DNA of 45,816 nt from Pirellulaceae bacterium (lineage in GTDB: Bacteria; Planctomycetota; Planctomycetia; Pirellulales; Pirellulaceae), in assembly GCA_030748485.1 (NCBI GenBank), contig JASMLW010000161.1, positions 1 through 45,816 of the forward strand. The letters run 5' to 3'. The position numbers were made by a program, and so were the translations under genes. Under the pieces are notes generated by a model. That model did not search any database. It saw only the letters and a program-made list of their open reading frames with translations, and was not told the DNA's origin. Below, piece after piece: positions 37,075-45,565 of this stretch (positions are counted from its first letter, which is position 1; each line of letters begins with the position of its first letter).

Positions 37075-40000
37075 ATGTTTCGAGCTGTGAGATGGTGCTG
37101 CTGCTTACCCGTCTTTCTGTGGACATGTGGGTACGCTCGCGCCCAACAGGAGGCCGTTTCGTTTCAGCGCGACGTTCGCCCGATCCTGGCGGCGAAGTGT
37201 TTCAAGTGCCACGGACCTGACGACCAAGCGCGCGAGGCTGAGCTGAGACTCGACACTTTCGCCGGCTCCACGGCGCGTCGCGACGACGGTCCGGCGATCC
37301 AACCTGGCCGCCCCGCCGAAAGCACATTCGTGCAACGTATCGAGACTGATGACGCCGACCAGCGCATGCCGCCGTCCGACTCGGGGCTGACCATCACCGA
37401 CGACCAGATCGCCACGCTGCGGCGCTGGGTCGCGGACGGCGCCAAATACGAAAAACACTGGGCGTACGTGCCGCCCCAACGCCCCGCCATACCGACGGTG
37501 CGAGACACGAGTTGGCCGCGCAATCCGATCGATTTCTTCGTCCTCGCTCGTCTTGAACGTGAGAACCTGCGACCGTCGCCGCCGGCGGACCGATACACGC
37601 TGGTGCGACGTGTCTATCTAGATCTGATCGGCCTGCCGCCGACGCCGGAAGAAGCGGACGCGTTCGTCCGCAGCGCGGATCCCAACGCGTATGAAACCCT
37701 GGTTGGCCGTCTGCTGCAGTCCGAGCGGTACGGCGAACGGTGGGGACGATTGTGGCTCGACTTGGCTCGTTACTCGGATACGAACGGCTACGAGAAAGAC
37801 CGCGAGCGTTCGATCTGGCCTTATCGAGATTGGGTGATTGACGCTCTGAATGCGGACATGCCATTCGATCAGTTCACGGTGGAACAGATCGCCGGCGACA
37901 TGCTGCCGAACGCGACGCGCGAGCAACGCATCGCCACAGGGTTCCACCGCAACACGATGCTCAACGAGGAGGGCGGCATCGATCCGCTCGAGTACCGTTT
38001 CTATGCGATGATCGACCGCGTCGCGACTACCGGAACAGTTTGGCTCGGCATGACAGTTGGCTGCGCACAATGCCACGCGCACAAGTACGATCCGATGTCA
38101 CAGACCGACTACTACCGGTTGCTCGGTCTGCTCAACAACGCCGATGAACCCGACCTGATTGTCGAGAGCGATGCGGATCGCGAGCGCCGCGCGACGTTAG
38201 AAAAACAGATCGCCCGCTTGGAGCGCGAACTGCCGACTCATTTTCCGGTGGCCGACGAGGAAGACGACAAGGGGCCGCTGCGCAAGAAGAGGTTTGACGA
38301 GCGGTTGCAGGCGTGGATCACCCAACAGCAAGAATCGGCCGTCGATTGGAAAGTCCTGAAGATGGGCGAGTGGCGGACCAATCTGCCCAAGCTCGAATCG
38401 CTCCCCGACAACTCGATACTGTCGACCGGGGATATCACGAAGCGAGATGAGTTTCACTTGCAATTCTCGCTGCCGAAGTCGGACCGACCGTACACAGCGC
38501 TGCGCTTGGAAGTGCTCCCGGACGATCGCTTGCCCGCTCGCGGCCCAGGTCGCGCCTTTTACGAAGGTCGCAAGGGCGACTTCTTCTTGAGCCGCATCGA
38601 GGCGCGGGTGGATGGCGCAGCGGCCGCTTTGAAGGACGCCTCGGCGAGCTTTGCAAAAATCAGCATCGGTCGCGGCGCGGATCCGAAGAACGTGCTTGAC
38701 GAGGACGATTCAACTGGCTGGTCCACGGCGACCCGCGAAGGCCAGCCGCACCAGTTGGTCGTCAACTTCGCCGAACCGATCGCGGGCGAGCGATTGAATG
38801 TAATGATGTTGTTCGAACGTCACTTCGCCGCTTCGCTCGGCCGCTTCCGCTGGTCGATCGGCTCGGCGGATCGAACGATTTCGGCGAGCCAAACGCCGGT
38901 GGAAGTGGAGTGGATTCTGGCTCGCCCGCAGGAAGATTGGAATGCGGATGAGCAGCGTCGTGTGGCTCATCAGTTCGCCCTGCAATCGAGCGAGTTGGCT
39001 GAAGCTCGCAAGCCGATTGAGAAGCTCCGAGCGGCGCTGCCGCGGTCCGCCACCACGATGGTGATGCTCGAACGACCCGCCGACAATCCGCGGCCCACGC
39101 ATCGTCATCACCGGGGTGAGTATCTACAACCCAAAGAAGAGGTTGCGCCGGGCGTGCCGGCGATCTTTCCCGCGTTGGCGGGAGGCTCCAAGAATCGTCT
39201 GGCGTTCGCCCGTTGGCTTGTCAGCGAGAAGAACCCGCTCGTGGGTCGCGTTACGGTCAATCGCGCGTGGCGAGCTTTTTTCGGCCGCGGGCTCGTGGTG
39301 ACTAGCGCCGACTTCGGCACGCAGTCATCGCCGCCTTCTCATCCACAATTGGTGGATTGGCTGGCCGTGGAGTTCATGCAGAACCAAAGTTGGTCGCTCA
39401 AGCAGTTGCATCGGACCATCGTTTTGAGCGCGACGTATCGGCAATCGTCGTCGGTGACGCCGGAAATGCTGCAGCGCGATGCAAACAATGTGCTGCTGTC
39501 GCGCGGCCCGCGCCACCGTGTCGACGCGGAAGTTGTCCGCGACGTCATGCTCCGCGCCAGCGGCAAGCTGTCGAGCAAGATGGGCGGGCCCAGCGTGCGG
39601 CCGCCGCAGCCGGCCTCTGTCACTCAACTCGCGTACGGCAACACCAAGTGGCCAGTGGCCGTTGGCGAAGATCGATACCGCCGATCGATTTATACATTCA
39701 ACAAGCGAACTGCTCCGTTCGCCGCCTTCACCGTCTTCGACGGGCCCACCGGGGAGAACTGCATCGCCCGCCGCGACCGCAGCAACACGCCGCTGCAGGC
39801 TCTGACGCTGCTGAACGACGCGATGTATTACGAGCTGGCTCGCGCGCTTGCCAAACGATCGCTCGAGCAAGTCGACTCAGCTCCCGCGCGGCTCACCGTG
39901 ATGTTCCGCCACCTGTTGACGCGACCGCCGACGGCGGAAGAACTGGCCGCCCTGCATCTGTTCTACGAGCGGCAAATGAAACGACTACAGCAAGGTGGTC

Positions 40001-40110
40001 TGGACGCGAAAAAAATCTGCCAGTCGCCCGACGCGACCAACGAATGGGCCGCCTGTTCGCTGGTCGCCCGCGCCATGATGAACGTCGATGAAACGATTAC
40101 AAAACAGTGA
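37075..40110 (+). CDS. PSD1 and planctomycete cytochrome c domain protein (DUF1549/DUF1553)
   Basis: This 1011-residue exported protein has a signal peptide (CCCLPVFLWTCGYARA). A planctomycete cytochrome c module follows, with the heme motif KCFKCHGPDD (Cys42, Cys45, His46). Then come the DUF1549 block (IDFFVLARLERENLRPSPPA, ERYGERWGRLWLDLARYSDT) and, in the C-terminal third, DUF1553 (RLAFARWLVSEKNPLVGRVTVN, LSATYRQSS, LTLLNDAMYYELA). The family is nearly exclusive to Planctomycetota and related phyla and is always paired with DUF1501. It is thought to work in extracytoplasmic electron transfer or carbohydrate breakdown, but no activity is established. The DUF1501 gene follows at once. Confidence 0.95.
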   Translation: MFRAVRWCCCLPVFLWTCGYARAQQEAVSFQRDVRPILAAKCFKCHGPDDQAREAELRLDTFAGSTARRDDGPAIQPGRPAESTFVQRIETDDADQRMPPSDSGLTITDDQIATLRRWVADGAKYEKHWAYVPPQRPAIPTVRDTSWPRNPIDFFVLARLERENLRPSPPADRYTLVRRVYLDLIGLPPTPEEADAFVRSADPNAYETLVGRLLQSERYGERWGRLWLDLARYSDTNGYEKDRERSIWPYRDWVIDALNADMPFDQFTVEQIAGDMLPNATREQRIATGFHRNTMLNEEGGIDPLEYRFYAMIDRVATTGTVWLGMTVGCAQCHAHKYDPMSQTDYYRLLGLLNNADEPDLIVESDADRERRATLEKQIARLERELPTHFPVADEEDDKGPLRKKRFDERLQAWITQQQESAVDWKVLKMGEWRTNLPKLESLPDNSILSTGDITKRDEFHLQFSLPKSDRPYTALRLEVLPDDRLPARGPGRAFYEGRKGDFFLSRIEARVDGAAAALKDASASFAKISIGRGADPKNVLDEDDSTGWSTATREGQPHQLVVNFAEPIAGERLNVMMLFERHFAASLGRFRWSIGSADRTISASQTPVEVEWILARPQEDWNADEQRRVAHQFALQSSELAEARKPIEKLRAALPRSATTMVMLERPADNPRPTHRHHRGEYLQPKEEVAPGVPAIFPALAGGSKNRLAFARWLVSEKNPLVGRVTVNRAWRAFFGRGLVVTSADFGTQSSPPSHPQLVDWLAVEFMQNQSWSLKQLHRTIVLSATYRQSSSVTPEMLQRDANNVLLSRGPRHRVDAEVVRDVMLRASGKLSSKMGGPSVRPPQPASVTQLAYGNTKWPVAVGEDRYRRSIYTFNKRTAPFAAFTVFDGPTGENCIARRDRSNTPLQALTLLNDAMYYELARALAKRSLEQVDSAPARLTVMFRHLLTRPPTAEELAALHLFYERQMKRLQQGGLDAKKICQSPDATNEWAACSLVARAMMNVDETITKQ

Positions 40111-40153
40111 GCTCCCGTCTTGCTCGGGTAACCCGGAACGAAAGGGCTTCGCG

Positions 40154-41632
40154 ATGACCGATAGCATTCGCAACGGGGGACGAGATCGACTTCGCCTGCG
40201 GACTCGCCGACATTTCTTTCACGATTGCGGTGTGGGAATGGGTCGAGTCGCGCTGGCCTCGTTGCTCGCGCAGTCTCTACCGGCGCCCGTTGGCGGTGAA
40301 GAGAAGAGTCCGGCGCGTCGACCGAATCCGACCGCTCCCAAGCCGACCCACTTTCCCGCCAAAGTCAAGCGAGTCATCTACCTGTTCATGGCGGGGGCTC
40401 CGAGCCAGTTGGAGATGTTCGATCACAAGCCCAAGCTGCGCGAGCTGGAGGGCAAGTCGATCCCGCCTTCCGTGATTCGCGGCCAACGATACGCGTTCAT
40501 CCAACCGGATGCGGCCGTCTTGGGTCCGCGATTCAAGTTTCGGCGACACGGCGAATCGGGGGCGGAGATATCGGACGTCATGCCCCACCTGGCTAAAGTC
40601 GTCGATCAGATCGCCATCGTACGCTCAGTCCATACCGATCAATTCAACCATTCGCCCGCGCAGCTGTTCGTCAACACGGGCAGCGGCATCCCCGGGCGGC
40701 CGAGCATCGGCTCATGGCTCAGTTATGGTATCGGCAGCGAGGCGGACGACCTGCCCGCCTTCGTGGTTCTGAAGAGCGGTGGGAGTTTGAGCGGCGGAGC
40801 CTCGATGTGGAGTTCCGGCTTCCTGCCTTCGACGCACCAAGGCGTGCCGTTTCGTTCGCAGGGAGATCCGATTCTGCATCTCTCCAATCCGGAGGGTGTT
40901 GACGGTCAAGCGCAGCGCGAGTCGCTCGACTTGATCGGTGATTTGAACCGGCAGCGGTTGTCGGCGGTTGGCGACCCCGAGATTCAAACTCGCATCGACG
41001 CCTACGAAATGGCCTATCGCATGCAGTCGCGAGCTCCTGAACTGATGGACTTTTTGCGGGAGACGGACGCGACGATGAAACTGTACGGAGCCAATGCGGA
41101 CGGCAAACCCTCGTACGCCAATAACTGCCTGCTGGCTCGTCGACTGATCGAACGCGACGTCCGTTTCGTGCAGGTCTACCACGCCGGTTGGGATCATCAC
41201 TCCAACGTCGAGGGGGGTGTGACGAGTCAATGCAAACAAACGGATCAGGCGTCCGCCGCGCTGATCCAAGACCTGCGGCAACGAGGTCTGCTGGACGACA
41301 CGCTGGTCGTTTGGGGCGGCGAGTTCGGTCGGACGCCGATGGTCGAAGCGAGCGGCGCACTCGGCCGCACCCGAGGCCGCGATCATCATCCCCAGGCGTT
41401 CTCGATGTGGTTCGCCGGCGGCGGTGTTCGTCGAGGAGCCAGCGTTGGAAAGACCGACGATCTCGGTTTCCACGTGGTCGAGTCGCCCGTGCACGTCCAC
41501 GATGTGCAGGCCACCATCATGCACCTGCTCGGCATGGATCATGAACGGCTGACTTTCGACTTCCGCGGTCGAGCCTACCGACTGACGGACGTTCACGGCA
41601 AGCTCGTCAAATCAATCCTCACCCCGGCGTAA
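40154..41632 (+). CDS. DUF1501 protein, Tat-exported
   Basis: I favour the ATG at 40154 (492 residues), which puts the twin-arginine segment RTRRHFFHDCGVGMGRVALA near residue 17. An ATG at 40088 overlaps the previous gene and would add 22 residues. The DUF1501 family shares the alkaline-phosphatase-like fold: VIYLFMAGAPSQLEMFDHKP, VRSVHTDQFNHSPAQLF, VYHAGWDHHSN, VVWGGEFGRTP and GRDHHPQAFSMWFAGGG. It is the standard partner of the PSD1 gene upstream. The two products are presumed to act together outside the cytoplasm. Confidence 0.95.
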   Translation: MTDSIRNGGRDRLRLRTRRHFFHDCGVGMGRVALASLLAQSLPAPVGGEEKSPARRPNPTAPKPTHFPAKVKRVIYLFMAGAPSQLEMFDHKPKLRELEGKSIPPSVIRGQRYAFIQPDAAVLGPRFKFRRHGESGAEISDVMPHLAKVVDQIAIVRSVHTDQFNHSPAQLFVNTGSGIPGRPSIGSWLSYGIGSEADDLPAFVVLKSGGSLSGGASMWSSGFLPSTHQGVPFRSQGDPILHLSNPEGVDGQAQRESLDLIGDLNRQRLSAVGDPEIQTRIDAYEMAYRMQSRAPELMDFLRETDATMKLYGANADGKPSYANNCLLARRLIERDVRFVQVYHAGWDHHSNVEGGVTSQCKQTDQASAALIQDLRQRGLLDDTLVVWGGEFGRTPMVEASGALGRTRGRDHHPQAFSMWFAGGGVRRGASVGKTDDLGFHVVESPVHVHDVQATIMHLLGMDHERLTFDFRGRAYRLTDVHGKLVKSILTPA

Positions 41633-41647
41633 CGAGGGAACGCATTC

Positions 41648-42406
41648 ATGGGCGACGGCGAATTCGCAGGGCGAACCGCGCTGGTGACCGGCGGAGCCAA
41701 AGGGATCGGCCGCGCCTGCTGTGACGCGCTGGCTGAACAGGGAGCTCGCGTCGCTATCAATTACTTGAGCAGCCGAGAGCAAGCGGAGCGCGCGGCCGCC
41801 GACATCCGCGAGCGGGGCGGCCAAGCCAGAGCCTTCGCCGCCGACGTTTCTCAACACGAACAAGTCGAGCAACTTGTTCGCAATGTCGAAGATGAACTCG
41901 GGCCGATCGACTTGTTGGTTAACAACGCCGGTGTCTTTGACTTCGTTGCACACGACGAAACCACACCCGAACTGTGGCGACGGACGCTGGATTGCAATCT
42001 GACGAGCGCCTACCTGGTCAGCTGGGCCGTCAAGACGAGCATGATCGAGCGCCGGTTCGGCCGCATCGTCAACGTCGCCTCCATCGCAGCGCTCCGCGCG
42101 CGTCCGATGTCGATCGCGTACGCGGTCAGCAAGGCCGGGATGGTCGCGCTGACCAAAAGCCTAGCCGAAGCCGTCGCCGAACACGGTGTCCGAGTCAATG
42201 CGATCGCGCCCGGTCTCATTCAGACCGAGATCCTCGATGGCGTCGATCAAGCCAGCCTCGACGCGCTGATCGCAGCCACGCCGATGAAACGAATCGGTCA
42301 GCCCGACGACATCAGCGATGTCGTCGTCTTCTTGCTCAGCGATCGATCGCGGTTCATGACGGGGCAAACTCTGGTCGCCAGCGGCGGCCGGGTGAAGCTG
42401 CCCTAG
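41648..42406 (+). CDS. Short-chain dehydrogenase/reductase (FabG-like)
   Basis: This 252-residue cytoplasmic Rossmann enzyme has the nucleotide motif TGGAKGIG (residues 14-21), NNAG near 92, and the active-site Ser145, Tyr158 and Lys162 (NVASIAAL and AYAVSKAG). ALVTGG and IAPGLIQTEI are also family hallmarks. It would reduce or oxidise a carbonyl substrate with NAD(P). It follows DUF1501 by 15 bases, so it is in the same operon. Nothing in the sequence identifies the substrate. Confidence 0.95.
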   Translation: MGDGEFAGRTALVTGGAKGIGRACCDALAEQGARVAINYLSSREQAERAAADIRERGGQARAFAADVSQHEQVEQLVRNVEDELGPIDLLVNNAGVFDFVAHDETTPELWRRTLDCNLTSAYLVSWAVKTSMIERRFGRIVNVASIAALRARPMSIAYAVSKAGMVALTKSLAEAVAEHGVRVNAIAPGLIQTEILDGVDQASLDALIAATPMKRIGQPDDISDVVVFLLSDRSRFMTGQTLVASGGRVKLP

Positions 42407-42534
42407 GCTCCGCATTCGCCGGCGGAAAAAACAGCTCAACGTCACGCGATGGCGAGATTCTCGGCGAGTTTGGCGGTAAGATCAGCGATCGCTGAACGCG
42501 TTCATCCACCCATATTCATCGGGAGAGCGACAAC

Positions 42535-43776
42535 ATGCGATGCCAACTGTTGTTAGGGGCGCTGATGGGAATTGTCGCGACTCAAGTTGGACCGGCGTGG
42601 AGCCAAAGTCCGCAGTCGAAGAGCATCAACGTGCTCAAGCCGTCGAAACTCTCGGCCGCCCCGATCGCCGCCGTCCGCACGCCGCTCGGAATCTCCAACG
42701 ACTACAAACCGTTCATGACTCAATTGAAGAGTGGCGATTTGCTCATCGTCGCGTTTTGTTTTGGCAAGATCGGGGGAGTCGACGGCTACGCTGAGCGGGC
42801 CGTGTTTTGGAGATCGCAGGACGGCGGGCGCACGTGGGGCCCGCGCGAAGAGCGACTGGACCTGCAGGGCCGCGAGTTCGGCCTCACGACGCTGCACGAC
42901 GGCACGCTCATCATGACCTGCCACTGGTTGGCTCGCGACGTGTTCAATCCGTCCAAGCACACGCACAGCAAAATCTTTCGCTCGACCGATGAAGGCAAGA
43001 CGTGGTCTGAAAAGCGGATTGGTCCAGCCGGTTTCCCCGATCGCGCCGAGACGGTGGCCGATTGGGTCGCCTTCGAGCAACCCGACCCGGAACGGCCGGG
43101 CAAGTTCACGACCTGCGTCGGCGTCAGCATGCAACACGGCCGGGAGAACGCGCCGCGCGTCGCTCGCATCTGGCGCTCCAAAGACAGCGGCAAGACGTGG
43201 GATCGCAGCCTCAACCCCGACACGAAGGGCTGGATCGACGTCGATGGTTTTTTCTCGCAAACCGTGACCTTCCGCTCGAAGTCGGGCCGGCTGTTCCATC
43301 CCGTCCGCGTCGACCGCACCGGACCGCATTGGCATATTCCGGGCACTCCGGAAAGTCTCAAGAGTGAGCAAGGGGATCAAGGAGACCGAATGCTGCTGTG
43401 GGAGTCGTCCGACCGCGGCCGCACCTGGACCAAGCACCGCAAACACGGCAACTTCGGAACGTACGGCGAGATGTACCCGCGGTTCATTCAACTGCGCGAT
43501 GGACGCTTGCTGTTGACCTTCACCGTCCGCAGCAATTCAACCGACGGGCACGGGTTGGGGCTCCGCGCCATCATCAGCGACGACGACGGCGACACGTGGG
43601 ACTTCGCGAAAGACCGGCTGGTCATCAGCGACGTCAACACCGGCTCGAGTGGCGGTGGATTCGGCAACACGATTCAGATGAAAGACGGCTCGCTAGTGAG
43701 TTGCTACAGTTACCGAGCGAAAGACAATACAACGCGAATTGAGGCCGTGCGTTGGTCGCTTCCCGCTCGCCAGTAA
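42535..43776 (+). CDS. Secreted BNR/sialidase-like protein
   Basis: This 413-residue exported protein has a signal peptide (LLLGALMGIVATQVGPAWS). Five Asp-box motifs are visible (SQDGGRTW, STDEGKTW, SKDSGKTW, SSDRGRTW, SDDDGDTW), the mark of a six-bladed sialidase beta-propeller. The usual arginine triad cannot be placed with certainty, so catalysis is not proven. It follows the SDR gene by 128 bases on the same strand and may act on glycans together with the sialate O-acetylesterase at 28476. Confidence 0.9.
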   Translation: MRCQLLLGALMGIVATQVGPAWSQSPQSKSINVLKPSKLSAAPIAAVRTPLGISNDYKPFMTQLKSGDLLIVAFCFGKIGGVDGYAERAVFWRSQDGGRTWGPREERLDLQGREFGLTTLHDGTLIMTCHWLARDVFNPSKHTHSKIFRSTDEGKTWSEKRIGPAGFPDRAETVADWVAFEQPDPERPGKFTTCVGVSMQHGRENAPRVARIWRSKDSGKTWDRSLNPDTKGWIDVDGFFSQTVTFRSKSGRLFHPVRVDRTGPHWHIPGTPESLKSEQGDQGDRMLLWESSDRGRTWTKHRKHGNFGTYGEMYPRFIQLRDGRLLLTFTVRSNSTDGHGLGLRAIISDDDGDTWDFAKDRLVISDVNTGSSGGGFGNTIQMKDGSLVSCYSYRAKDNTTRIEAVRWSLPARQ

Positions 43777-43819
43777 CGTGCCGATCGTGCCCTTCGTTGA
43801 TTGAGAATCGACATCGGCT

Positions 43820-43849
43820 GTGCCACACACAAGGCGAGCTGCCGCGCTC
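43820..43849 (-). repeat. Dispersed intergenic repeat, partial copy
   Basis: Read on the minus strand this is GAGCGCGGCAGCTCGCCTTG followed by TGTGTGGCA. It matches only the GGCAGCTCGC...GTGGCA end of the extended element seen near 14671 and 28198. Confidence 0.5.
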
Positions 43850-43862
43850 ATCTATTCGGCGT

Positions 43863-45278
43863 TCATGGCGAGTCGTTCTCGGCCGGCTCAGCCTTGTCCT
43901 TCTTGTCTTTTTCTTTGTCCGTCTGCTCCGCTTTCTGCTTCTCGGCCTTTTCTTTGGCGGCCTCATCTTTCTCAGCCTTCTTTTTTTCGGCCGCTTTCGC
44001 GGCTTTCTCCTTTTCCGCCTTCTTCTTAGCGGCGGCCGCCTGAGCTGCTTTTTCTGCGGCGTCTTCTCGCGCTTGATCCAACAACAGCATCACAATCGAT
44101 CGCTCGAGTTCGCGCGGCTTGTAGCCAAACGGCCCGCGACCACCCTTGTAGGCGACTTTGCCGCAGCGATCGATCAGGTAGAGTCGGTCGGGAAAGGCGG
44201 CGTAGGCCTTGGCGACCTTGTCATCGATGGTGTCGACGAGCATCGGGCAGAGGAGTTGCAGAGAGCTGCTGCACTGGTCGGCCAGCGCGAGCCGTTCGTC
44301 GAACGATTTGGGTTGCGTGGCCTTGATGCCGAATTGATCATTGAACGTCAGCCGCCAGCCATCGGTCGGATGAGCCTCACGGATATAGATCGTGTAAAAG
44401 TCGACTTGTTTCTCGTACGCGGCGAACACCTTGTCCATGACCCCAGCCTGGGATCGAAAGGGGCCTCACGTAAAGCTGCCGAAAATCAGCACAACGGGCC
44501 GGTCGCCTCGTTTGCTGAGCGTGACCGTCTCGTCCAGGCCGCGAACCTTGAGCGTGAAATCGGGCGCTGGGTCGTTGACGTTCGGCCCGTGTTCGAGCGC
44601 GCCGAGTTGGCCGCTGAGCAACATCTCGAGGTCCTTCATGCGGTTCTGTCCGGGCCGGTAGAGCGGTCCCGCGTTACCCGGTTCCTGCAAGTGTTTGGGC
44701 GGAGCGCCGAGCCCCGCTTGCAAGTCAGCCAGAGTAAAGAAGCCAACCTCGTCGCCGTCGGTCTCCTTGAAGAACTGCACGATCTCGTCCTGAGTCACTT
44801 TGCCGTTGGAGTCGCGGTCCAAACGAAAGAACAACTCTTCCCCCATCACGGCGGCCGGTCCCGACGGCCGGGGCGGATCGCGGAGATCCTTTTGAGTCAA
44901 CCGCAAGTCCCCCGAGCGATCGAGCTTGAGGAAGAGCGACTTGTGCAGTTCCATTTCGCGGACCTCAATGGCTCCGCTCTTGTCGGCGTCGAACGTGGCC
45001 ACGAGCCACTTCCAGTCGTAACGAGTCTGGCTTCCCTTCCACCAACCTTCACCGGGACGCATCCCTTCACCCTTCATCAAGGCGGCCGCCATCGACGCCC
45101 ATTCGGGGCGGTCGGGCCAGTCCTTCTCCAGCATCTGACTGAGGCGTTGCAGCGTAGCGTTCTGAGCGCGCAGCTCTTTTTGGTCCTGGCCTCGACTGGC
45201 CGAAACGGGGACCAACAGGGCGACTAACATCGCGACTAACGTCGCGAAAGACAGGGAACACCGAATCCAGCGGACCAC
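43863..45278 (-). CDS. EF-hand/deiodinase-like probable selenoprotein with in-frame TGA
   Basis: The GTG at 45278 lies seven bases after AAGGAG and starts a signal peptide (LVAMLVALLVPVSASRG). The frame meets TGA at 44466-44468 (codon 271), then stays open to 43863; read through, it gives 471 residues. Residues 97-185 hold about four EF-hand loops (DADKSGAIEVRE, DRDSNGKVTQDE). Residues 238-400 match iodothyronine deiodinase-like proteins: APDFTL, VVLIFGSFT-U-GPFR, DFYTIYIREAHPTDGW, VDTIDDKVAKAYAAFPDRLY. The TGA falls exactly where the family has its active-site Sec or Cys. A hairpin (44439-44455) follows at bacterial SECIS distance. The last 70 residues are a Lys/Ala/Glu-rich tail. Substrate is unknown; a peroxiredoxin-like or dehalogenation role is possible. 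Confidence 0.85.
44439..44455 (-). promoter_or_regulatory. Candidate bacterial SECIS hairpin
   Basis: On the RNA strand GAUCCCA pairs with UGGGGUC (seven pairs, one U-G) around a GGC apical loop. The loop begins 17 nucleotides after the UGA at 44468-44466. Known bacterial SECIS elements have a G in the first two loop positions and about 16-37 nucleotides between UGA and loop. It lies within the coding sequence, as bacterial SECIS elements do. Confidence 0.75.
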
Positions 45279-45565
45279 GGGGATTCTCCTTGGTGAATCG
45301 TGAATGGAGCAGCGTGACGTGGCGACCTTTCCATCATAGCTGAGCGGCCCGGCGAGATCCGATCGAGCCGTCCAAATCGCTCAGTTTGCGCGGTGGTCAT
45401 GTGTGTTGAGTTTTTCGGCTTCTCTCGATCGATTCCAGCGACCACCGGTAGCGGACCGCGGTGGTCAATCGACTCACTGGACCGCTCATTTCCGATACAC
45501 TTGCTCCTTGATTTGTTCGGCGATCGCGACATGGTCGTGTCGACACGGTGGTTTTGGAGAGCTCA
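45279..45565. other. Divergent intergenic region with a repeat copy
   Basis: This region lies between the deiodinase-like gene (-) and the AbgT gene (+). It contains the dispersed repeat at 45401-45455. No gene is supported. Confidence 0.4.
45401..45455 (+). repeat. Dispersed intergenic repeat, copy 6
   Basis: GTGTGTTGAG, TTCGGCTTCTCTCGATCG, ATTCCAGCGACCACCGG and TAGCGG follow the order of the core element at 15781-15836. The extended end is absent. Confidence 0.8.

Follow-up and report, generated by a model that had tools for sequence, protein, structure and literature searches.

The question raised by this locus is whether two adjacent open reading frames on the minus strand of a planctomycete contig belong to a single gene whose internal TGA codes for selenocysteine (Sec). 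The window, as used below, is the whole stretch of DNA that was analysed: 45,816 nt, positions 1-45,816 of the forward strand of contig JASMLW010000161.1 (Pirellulaceae bacterium, assembly GCA_030748485.1). The original prediction had placed the TGA at the active site of a deiodinase-like protein and proposed that the organism decodes it as Sec.

Gene Layout and Protein Parts

Translation of the minus strand from 45278 to 43866 gave 471 residues with one internal TGA, codon 271 (44468-44466), in the context ...VVLIFGSFT-U-GPFRSQAG.... The gene-ending TGA (43865-43863) came after a Lys/Ala/Glu-rich tail. Under the standard code (table 11) the same region is divided into two open reading frames, 44466-45278 and 43863-44438. 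The features assigned to the gene were as follows.

43863..45278, minus strand: the complete gene, from its GTG start to its TGA stop, coding for 471 residues, with predicted Sec at 271
45192..45278, minus strand: signal-peptide-like N-terminus, residues 1-29, with hydrophobic core LSFATLVAMLVALLVPVSA, by sequence inspection only
44724..44990, minus strand: four EF-hand-like loops, residues 97-108, 120-131, 154-165 and 174-185
44103..44630, minus strand: deiodinase domain PF00837, residues 217-392, E 2.6e-33
44466..44468, minus strand: TGA read as putative selenocysteine 271, motif GSFT-U-GPFR
44439..44455, minus strand: predicted bacterial SECIS hairpin of 7 bp (GATCCCA/TGGGGTC), spanning nt 11-27 downstream of the UGA
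44271..44273, minus strand: Cys336, a conserved second Cys, present in 25 of 25 alignment rows and Leu in mouse DIO2 and DIO3
43866..44075, minus strand: Lys/Ala/Glu-rich helical tail, residues 402-471, which differs between relatives

The GTG start was preceded by AAGGAG at a distance of 7 nt, and third-position GC was similar on either side of the internal TGA (0.78 and 0.72). The deiodinase domain (115.7 bits against a cut-off of 27) spanned both sides of this codon, as did a match to NCBIfam family NF038285 over residues 54-402 (375.9 bits, cut-off 250). The solved core of mouse DIO3, which with DIO2 was the best solved relative by sequence, aligned with residues 245-392 (E 8.7e-26). With all three alignments crossing codon 271, the claim of an in-frame TGA at a deiodinase active site was confirmed. 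On the sequence evidence, 45278-43863 of the minus strand makes up one gene, whose only internal TGA is codon 271, far beyond what would be expected by chance. The interval originally proposed, 44439-45278, covered the upstream open reading frame, but the gene itself reaches 43863. By coincidence, that interval also took in the whole SECIS-like hairpin (44455-44439) and ended at its limit.

Residues 2-22 formed a helix in the AlphaFold model, and the protein can be regarded with good confidence as exported, as judged from its N-terminal sequence. An EF-hand_6 profile scored 35.3 bits (cut-off 25), which placed the loop region among the EF-hands. By inspection loops 97-108 and 154-165 were canonical and loops 120-131 and 174-185 less so, while D97, D120, D131, D154, N158, G159 and E165 were unchanged in all eight full-length relatives aligned. 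A match to NCBIfam XopAW (21.8 bits, cut-off 120) reflected EF-hand similarity only and was set aside.

The neighbourhood told little about function and was not used as a clue to it. The contig appears to stop 538 nt upstream of the gene, and the neighbours at 37075-43776 were of planctomycete type (a PSCyt1/PSCyt2/PSD1 protein, a DUF1501 protein, an SDR and a BNR-repeat protein). Across 50 loci, with duplicates and the window included, the recurrent flanking genes, named by inspection, were a pilin-like gene (10/50) and a small lipoprotein gene (7/50). Both lay upstream of the EF-deiodinase gene in L058, L063, L064, L077, L095 and L096, the pilin-like gene (FTLVELLVVIAIIG) being DUF1559-type by inspection. 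A cluster of conserved antisense open reading frames was disregarded as it overlies the gene itself.

The Active-Site Codon in Relatives

Among 124 homologue rows read (duplicate loci included, rows gapped at the active-site column skipped), the codon was TGA in 97, TGC in 21 and TGT in 6, and conserved sequence continued downstream of it. The expectation that homologues carry Cys or Sec at this column was thus borne out in every row read. Homologues with a true stop and no conserved sequence beyond it, named in the original prediction as counter-evidence, did not occur. Several loci (L045, L056, L058, L064 and L069) held neighbouring copies of deiodinase-like genes, and in L045, L056 and L069 copies with TGA and with Cys at the active site were found together.

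A Hairpin Downstream of the UGA

Delivery of Sec-tRNA-Sec to UGA by SelB bound to a hairpin is an established mechanism, and searches for bacterial SECIS elements follow the rule that the apex lies 16-37 nt after the UGA. The loop of the window hairpin is GGC (44448-44446), although the structure is equally readable as six pairs with apex AGGCT. This apex begins at 17 nt and is of the same type as that of E. coli fdhF, in which AGGTCT starts 18 nt after the UGA.

Folded singly, the window sequence had ordinary stability (z -0.41, with 58 of 200 shuffles as stable), and a fold of 45 nt favoured a different structure. Single-sequence folding was therefore dropped as proof of a SECIS, and the case for the hairpin rests on comparison across relatives. 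An Rfam scan of the window returned nothing above any gathering score; at E up to 10 the sole match in 43800-45400 was a plant-virus element, attributed to chance.

The comparison was made on distinct sequences of 48 nt that contained no N, 76 from Sec and 11 from Cys relatives. All seven pairs were formed in 38 of the 50 Sec relatives of one group, which was defined by the downstream peptide R.[QN].[GA] and picked after folds had been looked at, and the mean was 6.44 of 7 pairs. In 1000 resamplings, in which synonymous codons were drawn randomly by each gene's own usage, the mean was 3.69 pairs and all seven were formed 0.1 times (maximum 2). Across 48 distinct rows, 91.7% of cells were paired and 38 cells had changed on both sides, with a covariation score of 0.370 against 0.148 when shuffled (0/500 shuffles as high); four pairs showed a double change, compared with 2.2 expected from shuffles (14/500). 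Sliding the register by 1-3 columns left 26-58% paired, the values for one column being 52-58%, and RNAalifold recovered six of the seven pairs unaided.

The seven-pair hairpin was found in 0 of 25 Cys rows (mean 2.56 pairs). The nine Cys rows whose downstream peptide was similar (R.[QH].G) formed two to five pairs each, compared with seven pairs in 32 of 40 Sec rows in the same control comparison. In this register the other 26 Sec sequences paired no better than the null (2.88 against 2.93 of 7 pairs). In a looser scan that allowed the apex anywhere 16-37 nt after the UGA, these 26 had a hairpin at another position within that range (6.5 bp versus 4.52, 0/100 runs). The Cys group (n = 11) did not exceed the null in that scan (16/100), one sequence having a 10-bp stem. 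Judged by these comparisons, the hairpin is a predicted bacterial SECIS under selection, with a G at its apex.

Selenocysteine Machinery of the Genome

The genome to which the window belongs (8.73 Mb in 649 contigs, 95.88% complete, 6.19% contaminated) contained a tRNA-Sec with anticodon UCA (68.5 bits), and selB (368 bits) and selA (554 bits) adjacent on one contig, both without an internal stop. It also contained selD (402 bits; L022, contig C328), which itself has a TGA at its active site (THGGG-U-ACK). All four components required by the proposal that the organism decodes Sec were therefore present. A second SelD-like match (L023, C646; 257.6 bits, over the cut-off) lay inside a frame of 772 residues, the N-terminal part of which was oxidoreductase-like by inspection.

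The GC of the sel contigs was 0.60-0.62, compared with 0.61 for the window, and the SelB was 55-57% identical to that of three genomes of the same family. These two observations make it less likely that the sel contigs are contamination.

The genome gave five PF00837 matches, of which three exceeded the cut-off; each of the five had TGA at the active-site column. The four further deiodinase-like genes (L026 on C533, L028 on C249, L029 on C288 and L030 on C603) had one active-site TGA each. L030 fuses a PQQ-type beta-propeller with a GCLT-U domain; in L029 such a domain is joined to a part that weakly resembles DsbD_N (18.0 bits, below the cut-off of 25).

Distribution of Relatives and Co-Occurrence with selB

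Own genome apart, the deiodinase part was matched in 10 of 59 near relatives. Scanning named genomes yielded 46 loci, the labels being planctomycetes for 43 and Gammaproteobacteria, Chloroflexota and an uncultured bacterium for the rest. At E 1e-3 the EF-deiodinase profile matched 263 of the phylum's 392 genomes, the window's own genome among them, many of these matches being weak and possibly to other thioredoxin-like proteins. At E 1e-80 there were matches in 23 of the order's 396 genomes, again with the own genome counted, and the full-length protein is thus sparse in the order. The two genes labelled Gammaproteobacteria and Chloroflexota (L079 and L080) were a close pair of Sec deiodinase-like genes nested among planctomycete sequences, a placement that could reflect either transfer or a binning error.

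A TGA deiodinase-like gene was read in 36 genomes, and in 34 of these selB scored over its cut-off. It was not found in the other two, G362 (64% complete) and G204 (85% complete). By comparison, selB was present in 3 of the 19 genomes whose best EF-deiodinase match was a Cys form; G284 and G107, with neither TGA in the match nor selB, were left out of this count as their active-site codon was unread. One genome (G433) held a TGA form, a Cys form and selB together. The association between selB and codon form (Fisher 4e-9) is overstated by that value, because the tree offers only two to three independent comparisons; moreover, the genomes were chosen non-randomly, from best matches, and the remaining genes in the Cys genomes were read in part. 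The co-occurrence of selB with TGA forms is accordingly taken as supportive and not as proof of its own.

Sec/Cys Switches and a Companion Change

A quick IQ-TREE phylogeny was built from 75 rows (68 family, 7 outgroup). The active-site residue and the residue three before it were masked in the 68 family rows and left unmasked in the 7 outgroup rows. Duplicate loci (L031, L034, L035, L036, L038, L039, L041 and L089) and matches below 240 residues, including the Cys row of L056, were left out. The tree contained three Sec/Cys changes, and three were forced by well-supported branches alone; a previous tree, built with fewer Cys rows, required four changes, two of them forced by well-supported branches. 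The outgroup rows were all Sec, yet spread over more than one clade, and Sec-to-Cys is the simplest direction because of their uniform state. The data are best read as at least three Sec/Cys switches in the Sec-to-Cys direction, a direction that appears best supported for a Cys clade of 14 rows nested beside three Sec sisters.

Every one of the 43 distinct Sec family rows had Ser at the residue three before the active site (residue 268 in the window protein), and the two main Cys clades had Asn there throughout (23 rows). A third, small Cys clade had Cys or Ser there, outside this rule, and the short Cys row of L056 had Ser (GSFTC), against it. In two of the switches, a change from Ser to Asn thus appears as a parallel companion to the Sec/Cys exchange. 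The counterpart of Ser268 in DIO2, Ser127, is described as belonging to the proton relay (PMC11592359).

Fold and Active-Site Residues

The AlphaFold model, made from 25 aligned rows with Cys replacing Sec, had a mean pLDDT of 88.3 and a pTM of 0.84. Its best fold matches were mouse DIO3 (4tr3, E 2.0e-10) and DIO2 (9h48, E 2.1e-10), with ResA-like thioredoxins and 1-Cys peroxiredoxins ranked behind them. Among the residues named in PMC11592359, alignment mapped DIO2 Ser127, Thr129, Sec130 and Tyr157 to S268, T270, U271 and Y298, and Glu160, His162, Pro163 and Trp167 to E301, H303, P304 and W308, while the Arg275 clamp of DIO3 was kept as R381. The full catalytic relay of DIO2/DIO3 was not found, as the second relay histidine, His182 of DIO2, aligned with Pro323, and this position hardly varied across the 25 aligned rows.

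Deiodinase-like proteins have been given a UxxC motif (PMC13188914). The motif here is UGPF, so the UxxC reading was dropped and Cys336 was considered instead. In the exact HMM column of Cys336, Cys was present in 86 of 97 rows, and 6 of the other 11 had Cys one column along. Cys336 is a possible resolving thiol. The AhpC-TSA profile (PF00578) scored 29.8 bits (cut-off 26), far weaker than PF00837. Two long Cys relatives from genomes without selB (G010 and G628) carried a fused CMD domain (27.3 and 26.4 bits, cut-off 23); in a third Cys relative, G429, the CMD score of 17.9 bits was below that cut-off.

Alternative Explanations and Likely Activity

A frame interrupted under the standard code, in a single metagenome-type assembly, could be that of a pseudogene cut by a true stop codon. 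This is very improbable in view of the dozens of relatives that have TGA at the same codon between stretches of conserved sequence, Cys as the only alternative in the rows read, and the apparently selected SECIS in a genome with complete Sec machinery. An open UGA inside a conserved gene might also be expected if UGA had been reassigned to an ordinary amino acid, or were read through at a low level by a near-cognate tRNA. We find this barely credible, as UGA terminates other genes, such as 37075-40110 with its Pfam-supported domains, as well as the window gene itself, selA and selB are free of internal stops, a tRNA-Sec with anticodon UCA is present, and homologues have Cys at the site. UGA codon 271 is, we conclude, almost certainly decoded as Sec.

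A further alternative has Sec decoding in common with our main reading and differs from it in chemistry only. The protein would be a reductive dehalogenase that retains the deiodinase active site and removes iodine or another halogen from aromatics outside the cell, with Ca2+ binding controlling the domain. Such an activity would suit the finding that the nearest solved relatives by both sequence and fold are deiodinases, not peroxiredoxins, and that S268, T270, Y298, E301, H303, P304, W308 and R381 match named residues of DIO2/DIO3. It sits poorly with the nearly invariant Pro323 in place of DIO2 His182, with the conserved Cys336, a position occupied by Leu in DIO2 and DIO3, and with the CMD fusions in two Cys relatives, and thyroid hormones are unexpected in bacteria, as argued too in PMC1088965. 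We consider dehalogenation unlikely. More doubtful still is its fuller form, in which an exported, Ca2+-dependent selenoenzyme dehalogenating aromatics would be kin to the stock from which the animal deiodinases were drawn.

Thiol or peroxide redox chemistry is the probable alternative to dehalogenation, and an exported selenol oxidoreductase of this type is the most likely predicted activity. On the redox side stand the AhpC-TSA match and the CMD domains fused to the two long Cys relatives. SelB would presumably bind the hairpin and bring Sec-tRNA-Sec to the UGA, the Sec being supplied by the genome's own SelA, SelB, SelD and tRNA-Sec. The product would then be exported by its N-terminal signal peptide and would bind Ca2+ through its EF-hands. 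As a putative selenol oxidoreductase of the deiodinase/peroxiredoxin branch with a thioredoxin fold, it might use Sec271 for attack on an electrophile such as a peroxide or a disulfide, and a thiol would re-reduce Sec271, perhaps with Cys336 taking part. Overall, it is very likely that the locus is one selenoprotein gene encoding a predicted exported, Ca2+-binding selenol oxidoreductase.

Relation to Known Systems

Deiodinase-like proteins with Sec and with Cys were reported in bacteria from the Sargasso Sea in 2005 (PMC1088965). The Sargasso Sea selenoprotein shares PF00837 with the window protein, together with Sec and Cys forms and a bacterial SECIS; the main text of that report does not mention an EF-hand, and its table holds four Sec sequences. 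A deiodinase-like selenoprotein fused with EF-hands was reported from ocean metagenomes in 2021 (PMC9402790). As likened by its description, this Global Ocean Sampling fusion has in common with the window protein the deiodinase-like selenoprotein part, an EF-hand domain (PF13499) and an extra conserved Cys of unknown role. It is of metagenome origin, and the description names no organism, SECIS test or Sec/Cys history. The family NF038285 (deiodinase family protein, deiodinase_rel) likewise covers an EF-hand part and a deiodinase domain. Its name is silent on Sec, whereas the window gene has an active-site TGA and a charged C-terminal tail.

Mouse DIO3 and DIO2 (4tr3, 9h48) have the thioredoxin fold, Sec and most relay residues in common with the window protein, which differs from them in having Pro323 for the second relay His, Cys336 for Leu, and a bacterial rather than a eukaryotic SECIS. 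In addition, EF-hands and a signal-peptide-like start replace the transmembrane region of the deiodinases (PMC11592359). Selenoproteins have been reported in planctomycetes (PMC4807772, in whose main text the word deiodinase does not occur), and deiodinase-like proteins are counted among more than 110 prokaryotic selenoprotein families in a 2026 review, which describes the replacement of Sec by Cys as rare among prokaryotes and documented chiefly for FdhA and SelD (PMC13188914). Among the best matches in the open-licence PMC literature, no title dealt with deiodinase-like selenoproteins in planctomycetes or with their Sec/Cys switches. The kind is already known, from the deiodinase-like proteins of 2005, the EF-hand fusion of 2021 and NF038285, and the gene is a well-supported new member of it; the evolutionary side result on Sec and Cys may be new.

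The catalytic residue of this protein is encoded by a stop-like codon, so that under the standard code the gene falls into two parts, and many of the deiodinase-like matches listed in the phylum hold one TGA. The finding ties the animal deiodinases to a bacterial family that is open to expression and assay. If the dehalogenating reading were true, nature would already have matched Sec/Cys enzyme pairs with which to ask what Sec buys. The recurrent Sec/Cys switches, with the accompanying Ser/Asn change, would provide naturally occurring pairs in which to test the reasons for keeping or losing Sec.
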